A stretch of 64,000 nucleotides of DNA, taken from NCBI RefSeq assembly GCF_014274465.1, contig NZ_CP060394.1, positions 4,278,001-4,342,000 of the forward strand, read 5' to 3'. The notes under the pieces are model-generated. The model was not told where the DNA came from. It saw only the letters and a program-made list of their open reading frames with translations, and made no database searches. This DNA is from Alloacidobacterium dinghuense (GTDB taxonomy: Bacteria; Acidobacteriota; Terriglobia; Terriglobales; Acidobacteriaceae). Shown here piece after piece: positions 10,750 through 13,457 of the stretch. The position numbers were made by a program, and so were the translations under genes. The first letter of the stretch is position 1. The number at the start of each line of letters is the position of its first letter.

Positions 10750-11496
10750 CTAAGCAGGTTGGGCAAGCCATTCGTCGAATCGTGTCTTCCCGAGGCTTGC
10801 ATTGCCTTCGGGAACGAGTGCGCGTTCGGTCACCTTGATGCCGTAGTAAGTCGCCTGCGGATCAGCGACAACTTTTCGCGCATCCTTGTATGCGGTCAGA
10901 CCATGCCGGATAAGTTCATCGAGGCGGAACTGCTCCGGCCCCCCTACTTCTACGATGCCATTCACTGGTGAACCTGTCGCGACGCGGCCTACTGCACTGG
11001 CGACATCGTCAGCGGCCATAGGTTGGATAAGTACAGACGGCAGGTGCACCTCGTTGCCCTTGGTGGAGAAATCGGCGATGCCCTTGACGAATTCAAAGAA
11101 CTGCGTCGCGCGGACGATCGAATGAGGGATCGATGATGCTTGGATGAGCTTCTCCTGAGCCATCTTTGCCCGGAAGTAGCCGCTTTCAAGCAGACGTTCC
11201 GTTCCTACGACCGACAACGCAACATGATGTTTCACATCTGCAGCTGCTTCAGCGGCGAGGAGGTTACGGGTTGATGTCTCAAAGAAATTCATCACAGCCG
11301 CGTCTTCCCAGGCCGGAGCATTGGATACGTCCACGACAACCGATGCACCCTTCAGCGCTTCTGCCAGTCCTTCGCCGGTGAGCGTGTTGACGCCCGAATT
11401 CGGGGACGCTGCTATCGCTTCGTGCCCTTGTTCACGAAGCTTGGGGACGAGTTTTGATCCAATGAGTCCACTACCGCCGATGACTACGATTTTCAT
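10750..11496 (-). CDS. NAD(P)-binding NmrA/SDR-like protein
   Basis: A 248-aa atypical short-chain dehydrogenase. The start at 11496 gives MKIVVIGGSGLIGSKLV with the GGSGxxG dinucleotide-binding turn at the N-terminus and an AAGGA-like ribosome-binding site; longer in-frame starts lack one. The middle carries an NmrA-type pattern (SIPHSIVRATQFFEF, then MAADDVASAVGRVA), and the classical YxxxK triad is not obvious, so it may be a redox sensor or a dehydratase-like enzyme. It lies downstream of the cupin and ECF41 genes. ECF41 sigma factors are typically linked to such oxidoreductase or NAD-epimerase-like partner genes, which fits the context. Confidence 0.88.
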   Translation of the reverse strand: MKIVVIGGSGLIGSKLVPKLREQGHEAIAASPNSGVNTLTGEGLAEALKGASVVVDVSNAPAWEDAAVMNFFETSTRNLLAAEAAADVKHHVALSVVGTERLLESGYFRAKMAQEKLIQASSIPHSIVRATQFFEFVKGIADFSTKGNEVHLPSVLIQPMAADDVASAVGRVATGSPVNGIVEVGGPEQFRLDELIRHGLTAYKDARKVVADPQATYYGIKVTERALVPEGNASLGKTRFDEWLAQPA

Positions 11497-11598: not shown

Positions 11599-11979
11599 CT
11601 ACTTCACCGGAATCAGAACAGGCGCATTTTTGTCTTTGACCAGGAAGACGATAAATTTGGCCGGTTTGGTATTGCTGGCATTGCGGCCAACAATGTGAAC
11701 GTCGTTGGGTCCTTCGTAAAAGGTCTGTCCAGGTGTCAGGGTGACAGGTTCTCCGCCTTTTACCTGCATCACGACGGTTCCATCGAGTACGTAGACAAAC
11801 GCGTGAGCATTGTGCCGATGAATGGGATCCGAAGCGCCAGGCGGATATTCGACTGTGATCATCAGGCCTTCTTTGCCAGGGAAGTCCTTCAAATCCTTCG
11901 ACATCAGCGGAGTGACCTTTGCCTCCTGCGCCATGAGCGGGCCGGAGATGAGGCACAGCAGCATCAAGATTGTTTTCAA
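11599..11979 (-). CDS. Secreted cupin-domain protein
   Basis: A 126-aa protein with a signal peptide (MKTILMLLCLISGPLMAQ) and a single small cupin barrel. Metal-ligand motif 1 is visible as HRHNAHAFVYVLDG and motif 2 as PGQTFYEGPNDVHIVGRN. The start codon is TTG at 11979, preceded by AAGGAG at about 7 nt. A longer alternative frame at 11579-12043 is out of frame and unrelated to cupins. It is the first gene after a predicted ECF41 promoter (12045-12071) and precedes the NAD(P)-binding gene by about 100 bp on the same strand. The enzymatic activity is unknown; many such cupins bind small molecules or act as dioxygenases. Confidence 0.9.
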   Translation of the reverse strand: MKTILMLLCLISGPLMAQEAKVTPLMSKDLKDFPGKEGLMITVEYPPGASDPIHRHNAHAFVYVLDGTVVMQVKGGEPVTLTPGQTFYEGPNDVHIVGRNASNTKPAKFIVFLVKDKNAPVLIPVK

Positions 11980-12044
11980 TGGATAGCTCCTTTCTCGTTG
12001 CCCGAGTCAACTGCTGATGCAGAGCGGGCTTATGTACTAGCAAG

Positions 12045-12071
12045 GACCTGGCAGAGGAGTGTTTTGTGACA
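12045..12071 (-). promoter_or_regulatory. Predicted ECF41-type promoter
   Basis: Reading the minus strand, TGTCACA (12065-12071) is followed after exactly 16 nt by GGTC (12045-12048). The published ECF41 consensus, recalled from knowledge, is TGTCACA, 16 nt, CGTC, so only one base differs. The site is 66 bp upstream of the cupin start and between it and the sigma gene, where an ECF41 target promoter would be expected. Confidence 0.65.
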
Positions 12072-12110: not shown

Positions 12111-13019
12111 CTATAAAGACTGGCTCGATGCCTGCGAGATCACCGCAAGCTTTGCCGGACTCATAACCCACAGGATTTGGCCGATGCCCTGCGGTGAAAC
12201 ATCTATCGCAACAAGCGCATAGGCGATTCCCTTGTTTCTTATAAGCGCGGCTGGTTGCCCGTTCACCTGCACTCGTGTAACAGTCCAGTCCGCCCAGAAA
12301 CGGGAAGAGAAGGTAGCGATGAATTTCGCTACACGCTCACGCCCGAGAACAGGAATACGCGCCGCTCCTAAAATTCCGCCACCATCGGTAATGGAAACAA
12401 TGTCCTCGGTAAAGATCTCTTTGAGCGCAGATATATCTGCCTTTTGCGCCGCAGCGAGGAAGGCTTCAAGAAGGCGGCGATGTTCGGAGGAGCTTACCTG
12501 AGCTCTCCGCTCGTCAGTGATGTGTTTGCGTGCGCGAGTGACCAGCTGACGTGTATTCGACTCGGTGAGCTGAAGGATGTCCGCGATATCGCTATAGGAG
12601 TAATCAAAAGCCTCGCGAAGAACGTAGGCGGCACGCTCATTCGGCAATAGTTTTTCAAGCAGAATCAGAACCGCCAATTCCAATGCTTCACCGCGCTCTG
12701 CTCCAAGGGTAGGATCGGCTGCGGTGTCTACGGGCTCTGGGAGCCAGGGGCCGATGTATGTTTCGTGACGAGAGCGGGCGGACTGCGCGAGATTGATCGC
12801 CAGCCGCACCGTCGTTGTTACAAGTAATGCCGTCGCATCTCGGACGACACTCCGGTCAGTGGATTGCCAGCGCAGCCAGACCTCCTGCACAATGTCCTCC
12901 GCTTCGGCGGCAGTTCCCAGCATCCGGTAGGCGATGCCGAACAGCCGTGGACGCACGCCGAGGAACGCGACAGTAGCCTGATTGAGTTCGTCGATATCGT
13001 CCGAACGCTGCGGATCCAT
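12111..13019 (-). CDS. sigJ: ECF41-family RNA polymerase sigma factor with SnoaL-like C-terminal domain
   Basis: A 302-aa extracytoplasmic-function sigma factor. Sigma region 2 lies at about residues 20-90 (LFGIAYRMLGTAAEAEDIVQEVWLRW). It is followed by the ECF41 linker signature WLPEP (YIGPWLPEPVDT) and region 4 at about 120-170 (AYVLREAFDYSYSDIADILQLTESNTRQLVTRAR). The C-terminal 120 residues form a SnoaL/NTF2-like domain with the conserved DGGG motif (SITDGGGILGAARIPV); in this group that domain modulates activity in place of an anti-sigma factor. It is upstream of the cupin and NAD(P)-binding genes, the expected partner type. Assignment to ECF41 is firm; the symbol sigJ is by analogy with actinobacterial homologues. 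Confidence 0.93.
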   Translation of the reverse strand: MDPQRSDDIDELNQATVAFLGVRPRLFGIAYRMLGTAAEAEDIVQEVWLRWQSTDRSVVRDATALLVTTTVRLAINLAQSARSRHETYIGPWLPEPVDTAADPTLGAERGEALELAVLILLEKLLPNERAAYVLREAFDYSYSDIADILQLTESNTRQLVTRARKHITDERRAQVSSSEHRRLLEAFLAAAQKADISALKEIFTEDIVSITDGGGILGAARIPVLGRERVAKFIATFSSRFWADWTVTRVQVNGQPAALIRNKGIAYALVAIDVSPQGIGQILWVMSPAKLAVISQASSQSL

Positions 13020-13457
13020 CGTCCCATTCTATGGGACAGGGTCCAGTTCCAAAGCGGGAATCCCAATAAGAGAATTAATACTCGTTGCAACGAGCATTGG
13101 CGGAAAGATGGATTGATTCCGGTAAAATAGAAATAGAGGACAAAGAAAAGGCCACCCGCTACGAAGCGGGCTTTTCTATTTTGCGAATCGACTCTTCAGC
13201 ATGGAGACCATGCGAGGGAGATGTATCGCCTGGATCAGGCAAGCCCCGATCGAGCCTGGATCAAGCGAGCAGACGTTCGTAAATTCCTTGTTTGGACGAA
13301 TTTACAAAATACCGGGGGAGGGTTCAGCATCGATCGCCCCCGGGTGATTCACGAGATAGAAAGCCCCTCAGGGCCGGTCAATACAGCGAGGATTGCTGAG
13401 AACCTGCAACCTTCTAAGTACTTGTATTTGGAAGAATTTACAAAAAGTATGGGTGCC
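13020..13457. other. Intergenic region between sigma factor and LacI gene
   Basis: This 438-bp region has no supported gene; the longest frame crossing it, 13221-13898, is antisense to lacI. It holds a terminator-like hairpin (13144-13177). It also holds an inverted pair GTAAATTC (13279-13286) / GAATTTAC (13298-13305) with a further GAATTTAC at 13434-13441, and a C/G-rich inverted repeat CCGGGGG...CCCCCGG at about 13312-13344. The promoter of the sigma gene should lie at its left end. Confidence 0.6.
13144..13177. terminator. Bidirectional terminator-like hairpin
   Basis: The inner stem is CCCGCT-acga-AGCGGG, and the outer arms are AGAAAAG and CTTTTCT, giving A- and T-rich flanks on both sides. 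It is downstream of the LacI gene on the minus strand and about 125 bp upstream of the sigma gene, so it could insulate the two. Confidence 0.6.

Follow-up and report, generated by a model that had tools for sequence, protein, structure and literature searches.

The promoters of ECF41 sigma factors are described by the consensus TGTCACA-N16-CGTC, given together with a logo of 285 sequences (Wecke et al., 2012, PMC3426412). In the available text of that study NmrA/Epimerase proteins form one of three classic ECF41 target classes, the arrangement of a sigma gene followed by its target accounts for 14% of the set, and four ECF41-linked cupin cases are counted in a survey of 373 ECF41 proteins; the physiological role of the group was not found (PMC3426412). 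Two systems from this work, Ecf41Bli-PydfG of Bacillus licheniformis and Ecf41Rsp-PRSP_0606 of Rhodobacter sphaeroides, are the closest described counterparts of the locus presented here, which lies in the window, the whole 64-kb stretch of DNA that was analysed. As far as the available text describes them, both resemble the window locus in the C-terminal extension of the sigma factor, in a TGTCACA −35 element, in a target gene that adjoins the sigma gene and in the lack of an obvious anti-sigma factor (PMC3426412). They differ from it in the −10 element, which is TGTT and CGTC in the Ecf41Bli and Ecf41Rsp systems and GGTC in the window, although all are of the NGTC/NGTT type, and in their targets, which are carboxymuconolactone decarboxylases rather than a cupin and an NmrA-type protein (PMC3426412).

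The sigma factor, its putative promoter and the genes behind it

The sigma gene lies on the minus strand (12111..13019) and encodes a protein of 302 aa. Both ECF-like sigma regions are recognised above their cut-offs (Sigma70_r2, PF04542, E 3.1e-10; Sigma70_r4_2, PF08281, E 1.3e-12), and TIGR02957 covers residues 19-294 with 325.4 bits against a cut-off of 323.25. The C-terminal match to SnoaL_2 is weak (E 2.6e-5) and its 25.2 bits fall just below the Pfam gathering score of 27; a C-terminal SnoaL-like extension of ~100 aa, which is an ECF41 feature, is nevertheless present. The initial annotation had named WLPEP and DGGG as ECF41 marks, and both are read in the protein, the former in the sigma2-sigma4 linker (YIGPWLPEP). 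In ECF41 factors the beginning of the extension is marked by DGGGK. In the window the residue after DGGG is I (DGGGI); its place is taken by K or R in those more distant relatives in which DGGG occurs, and mostly by another residue in the near clade. No anti-sigma gene is found beside the sigma gene, the downstream neighbour being the cupin gene and the upstream one a LacI-type regulator, assigned by eye. A terminator-like hairpin that could be used on both strands was observed upstream of the sigma gene (13154-13171).

A gap of 131 bp separates the sigma gene from the cupin gene, all on the minus strand. Within it TGTCACA-AAACACTCCTCTGCCA-GGTC, with a 16-nt spacer, is read at 12071..12045 (minus strand), exactly where an ECF41 promoter had been annotated, and both the strand and the place between the two genes fit the target promoter that had been proposed. 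The −35 element TGTCACA (12065..12071) is identical to the −35 given for ECF41 in the available text of PMC3426412. The spacer (12049..12064) has the length that, in ECF41 loci, far exceeds all others from 6 to 26. The −10 element GGTC (12045..12048) follows the rule of G or T before GTC where the sigma factor has Asn76. From the typical distance between −10 and +1, the transcription start is predicted to fall within 12035..12041. The annotation had further described the site as one base off the consensus, which is correct as to the letters, GGTC against CGTC, but the difference is no flaw since GGTC is normal in the Asn76 sigma lineage.

The cupin gene (11599..11979, minus strand; 126 aa, Cupin_2 E 3.7e-17) is the first of the presumed target operon. 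A Shine-Dalgarno sequence, AAGGAG, is read 7 nt before its TTG start (11987..11992, minus strand). The second gene (10750..11496, minus strand) encodes an NmrA/epimerase-type NAD(P)-binding protein of 248 aa, for which NAD_binding_10 and Epimerase both exceed their Pfam cut-offs (PF01370, 26.4 bits against 20.9) and NmrA stays below its own (24.8 bits against 27). The Cupin_2 and Epimerase matches, together with a cupin N-terminus that looks signal-peptide-like by eye, agree with the original description of a secreted cupin followed by an NAD(P)-binding protein. Its accompanying remark, that this is a less usual partner set, does not hold, as NmrA/Epimerase is a classic ECF41 class and cupins are already mentioned in the available text of the 2012 study (PMC3426412). 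Among the partner classes tested, carboxymuconolactone decarboxylase, oxidoreductase and epimerase, the window fits through Epimerase. In searches against solved structures the cupin gave weak matches, mostly to repeat proteins named Cake and with no functional lead, and the NAD(P)-binding protein gave one moderate match.

Cupin and NAD genes are frequent neighbours in relatives, and comparison within the bacterial family of the window shows the cupin-NmrA cassette as a recurring putative target of ECF41. The two genes would presumably be carried on one transcript and might serve redox or xenobiotic detoxification. The neighbourhoods of relatives also encode Rieske proteins, Fer4/CDGSH proteins, a ferritin-like protein, a haem peroxidase and an alpha/beta hydrolase, which would point to redox or xenobiotic chemistry.

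The site is very probably the promoter through which the ECF41 sigma factor encoded directly upstream drives its targets, the cupin and NAD genes. This reading, which is also that of the initial annotation, is the best supported because of the TIGR02957 subfamily of the sigma factor, the orientation and place of the site, its 16-nt spacing, which recurs across phyla, and the way the motif tracks the sigma factor. In the proposed mechanism the SnoaL-like C-terminal domain would respond to a signal, upon which the sigma factor would join RNA polymerase; domain 4 would read TGTCACA and domain 2 GGTC, and transcription would start ~4-10 nt past GGTC, yielding a transcript that encodes both the cupin and the NmrA-type NAD(P)-binding protein. 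Observed here are the sequence and spacing of the site, its conservation, the gene order and the joint occurrence of motif and sigma factor; analogy with the described systems suggests recognition by the window sigma factor itself and control by its SnoaL-like domain with no separate anti-sigma factor.

Alternatively, the cupin and NAD genes could be transcribed mainly by read-through from the sigma gene or from a housekeeping promoter, with the motif as a decayed leftover. The three genes are co-directional and the sigma-cupin gap holds no terminator-like site on the minus strand (a weak one lies inside the sigma gene, 12332-12313), as read-through would have it, and the motif does vary in relatives, with a spacer of 17 in L206 and 15 in L239 and with TGTCACG in L118 and L231. 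A scan restricted to E. coli-type promoters nevertheless found no sigma-70-like one on the minus strand between 11480 and 13300, and in the window the positions conserved in the lineage are intact and the −10 element fits residue 76 of the sigma factor, which makes this alternative improbable.

Conservation of the motif and its association with the sigma factor

The pattern TGTCACA-N15-17-SGTC matches the 64-kb window once, at the promoter site. Shuffling the window 100 times gave a mean of 0.17 matches, and since 15 of the 100 shuffles had at least one, the bare match is not significant alone. Nor is there an excess of TGTCACA-N15-17-NGTC in the 6.27-Mb genome, with 9 matches against 16 for the reversed control. 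Judged by our own assignment of probable genes, six of the nine are intragenic and three precede a gene (L140, L141 and L142). The first of these three is another TGTCACA-N16-GGTC (C1:2215453-2215479), 54 nt upstream of a gene for an ABC transporter ATPase. It is probably a chance match, because none of 29 relatives has it even with a relaxed pattern, in a scan where the flanks of L272 and L275 were clipped and the scanned stretch may be off. The second, a TonB-type site at 4229857, has a 17-nt spacer and AGTC. A wider ECF41 regulon in the same genome was considered and rejected, given the six intragenic matches and the ABC transporter site found in 0/29 relatives.

These background frequencies, nine matches against 16 in the control and an N16 site that relatives do not share, are what would favour the view that the promoter match itself arose by chance, the pattern being short. 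Against this, the chance of an N16 match on the right strand of the 131-bp gap is ~3e-5, as estimated from the four N16 matches of the genome, and the motif is conserved over orthologous loci and phyla with a peak at spacer 16. The match exceeds chance by its position and conservation despite its background frequency genome-wide.

Alignment of the upstream regions of orthologous loci had been proposed with the original annotation; in this comparison the TGTCACA and NGTC boxes are conserved. The sample consisted of 77 loci from named genomes, of which 31 with a remote sigma factor served as a negative set only, and of loci from 200 genomes of the window's family, 33 of which have a sigma match at E 1e-50. 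Matches from a Terriglobia MAG were 67-68% identical to the window sigma factor over part of the protein, and group with the window family in the tree. Each locus set was scanned for TGTCACA-Nk-NGTC with k from 6 to 26. The two boxes peak sharply at 16 nt in ECF41 loci of Acidobacteriota, Actinomycetota and Pseudomonadota: 31 N16 sites occur in 18 of 21 near-clade loci of the family, the window included (other spacers, at most 5), 42 in 23 of 33 Actinomycetota loci (at most 9) and 13 in all 11 Pseudomonadota loci (at most 4). A family clade with ~40% identical sigma factors has 8 in 5 of its 10 loci, and the two Terriglobia MAG loci have one each, 2 in all. The 31 remote-sigma loci have none, and the reversed control at spacer 16 gave 0 in every locus set. 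A smaller bump was observed at k = 11 (5 and 9 sites). It is this cross-locus comparison that makes chance a very unlikely source of the match in the window.

The motif was also compared with the presence of the sigma factor at the heads of cassettes. In the 200 family genomes cupin matches occur in 29 (E 1e-25) and NAD matches in 38 (E 1e-60). In 50 cassette heads a full motif, with a spacer of 15-17 and within 200 bp, was counted by hand. Among NAD-bearing heads it is present in 17 of 22 where the genome has a near sigma factor against 3 of 19 where it has none (Fisher p 1.3e-4, a value that ignores relatedness and so treats genomes that are not independent). The group without a near sigma factor includes G032, G054 and G059, which have a remote or partial sigma match. 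Set aside were seven cupin-only heads, none with the motif, and two heads (L231 and L238) from genomes with only a ~40% identical ECF41, neither with a full motif; L213 and L243, at contig ends, and several matches with no fetched flanks were not counted. A set of 27 sigma-less cassette loci has 0 motifs, and omits the motif-bearing L209, L217 and L239; because it was chosen after the motif results were known, reliance is placed on the two-by-two count of heads.

Five near-sigma heads lack the full motif: L118 (TGTCACG), L125, whose NAD gene is split in two, L204, L218 and L220. The motif-bearing heads with no near sigma factor, L209, L217 and L239, belong to genomes G108, G048 and G011, in which no ECF41-like sigma factor is found at E 1e-15; loss of the sigma factor, incomplete assembly or recognition of the site by a different factor would each account for them. 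The motif lies 53-65 nt before the leading gene in 17 of the 20 motif-bearing heads. The cupin gene comes first in the window, L115, L204 and L206, and the NAD gene in the other pairs seen; where present, the motif precedes the leading gene, whichever of the two it is. G130, whose sigma factor is the sister of the window's in the tree, has the same order of sigma gene, motif, cupin and NAD genes. In G193 a motif-bearing NAD gene lies ~2.3 Mb away from the sigma gene, so that control there is likely to act in trans.

The window sigma factor is the only ECF41-like one found in its single-contig genome of 6.27 Mb. That a different ECF sigma factor recognises the site is hardly credible: at least seven further genes have ECF-like similarity to it (E 1.1e-11, the next best match, to 4.9e-6), but in the genome search with the window sigma factor none matched over its full length or at ECF41-like identity, and the motif tracks the near ECF41 clade.

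Residue 76 of the sigma factor and the first base of the −10 element

Residue 76 of the sigma factor, an asparagine in the window (codon 12792..12794, minus strand, numbered from the ATG at 13019), covaries with the leading base of the −10 element. Among loci of the window sigma lineage this base is G or T, apart from an A in L128, and in Pseudomonadota relatives it is C in 13 of 13 sites. In the first set of loci Asp76 is present in all 13 with C and Asn76 in 43 of the 44 others, and two columns outside sigma2 separated that set equally well. Newly fetched motif places, 11 in number, comprised three Asp76 loci with CGTC, one of which also has TGTC (L282) and one a 15-nt spacer (L290), and eight others without CGTC; three earlier loci refetched with wider flanks fit as well. 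A second fresh set, drawn from other families of the phylum for all but one locus and including two motif-less loci, gave CGTC in 8 of 8 Asp76 loci (L323 with a 15-nt spacer). Its L325, which encodes a Ser76 sigma factor, has two GGTC and two CGTC sites, the latter ~3.5 kb away. Loci fetched after the rule had been noticed therefore conformed, except for the additional TGTC of L282 and for L325.

Over the 78 loci with N16 motifs, 21 loci with none having been set aside, CGTC is absent from 52 of 52 Asn76 loci and is the only form in 21 of 23 Asp76 loci, the exceptions being L128 (AGTC) and L282 (mixed); of three loci with another residue, two lack CGTC and L325 is mixed. In a leave-one-out analysis of 76 loci residue 76 predicts C or not C with 98.7% success, and the next column with 93.4%. 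The base class switches ~3 times on the tree (bootstrap 2-3) and well-supported branches force only one switch; with so few independent events the determinant may be another, linked one. A manual alignment places residue 76 at Asn88 of M. tuberculosis sigmaH. According to the available text of PMC6411747 this Asn88 acts as a wedge at the melting point and may help to set specificity, the described contact being with a neighbouring base. The evidence leans slightly towards ECF41 consisting of two promoter-reading classes set by one sigma2 residue, with GGTC or TGTC read by Asn76 and CGTC by Asp76. The window pair falls in the Asn/GGTC class. No earlier description of such a rule was met in a limited literature search, key ECF papers lying outside its reach. 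The apparent rule of one residue and one base for ECF41 promoter choice offers a clue to how such sigma factors read DNA.

Related loci and comparison with known systems

The genome contains a second cupin-NAD pair (C1:548067-549291; L204 4068-5292), 82% and 90% identical to that of the window. Its head has no ECF41 motif. A sigma-54 activator gene (Sigma54_activat, E 5.4e-72) precedes the pair, and TGGCAAG-N4-GTGCA, 58 nt before the second cupin start, is the most sigma-54-like site among the 50 heads according to a home-made score; a shuffle test of this site is indicative only, the pattern having been fitted to it. Related activators occur at four further places in 61 stretches (L134, L228, L242 and the overlapping L130/L210). 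From its sequence the second pair looks to be under a different control, of the sigma-54 type. Two modes of expression of one enzyme pair can thus be compared in the same genome, which could help to find the ECF41 signal.

The second pair is followed by a gene that resembles TetR by a weak Pfam match, and by genes for a small acidic protein and, judged by eye, a TMEM175-like protein. The small acidic protein (~80-115 aa), of which this is the single copy in the window genome, is conserved in ten places (L117 5014-5265, L122 4972-5211, L123, L124, L127, L130, L131, L132, L204 6056-6364 and L220), with QEExYLExxEEELRxIL and mostly also DDPPL. In five of the ten it has an ECF41 motif on one side and the sigma gene on the other. 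The L117 member has no Pfam match, and neither it nor the L204 member has one in NCBIfam.

Autoregulation is not indicated in the window, where no motif lies 5′ of the sigma gene; several relatives do carry one upstream of theirs. Two to four N16 sites occur in 8 of the 21 near-clade loci (L117, L121, L122, L130/L210, L218, L222, L225 and L226), the fourth site counted for G077 coming from L130 and L210 taken together. Genes behind some of these sites encode Rieske, ferritin-like or Fer4_19-CDGSH proteins, and behind others no ORF of at least 90 aa was found. Such multi-promoter loci depart from the published picture of ECF41 with a single target.

Some natural ECF41-like sigma factors were observed to end or diverge soon after sigma4, with DGGG absent (L130, L131, L132, L133, L134, L033, L034, L044, L046 and L051), although assembly errors are possible. 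This is near the point of an artificial truncation that made Ecf41Bli highly active.

The best solved-structure match of the window sigma factor is SigJ of M. tuberculosis (PDB 5xe7, E 4.3e-40), which aligns with it over sigma2, WLPEP, sigma4 and the start of the SnoaL-like domain, to residue 242. The NCBIfam SigJ model gives 263.8, below its cut-off of 271, whereas TIGR02957 exceeds its own. A literature search for ECF41 together with cupins returned nothing beyond PMC3426412 and a review. In the available text of the former the cupin of the ECF41-cupin loci is oriented as the sigma gene, as in the window, and the four cases stand there without sequences (PMC3426412); motif, gene pair and relatives are compared here. 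The window promoter adds one well-supported member to the known ECF41 promoter class, and the multi-promoter loci of relatives and the residue-76 rule extend beyond the 2012 picture.
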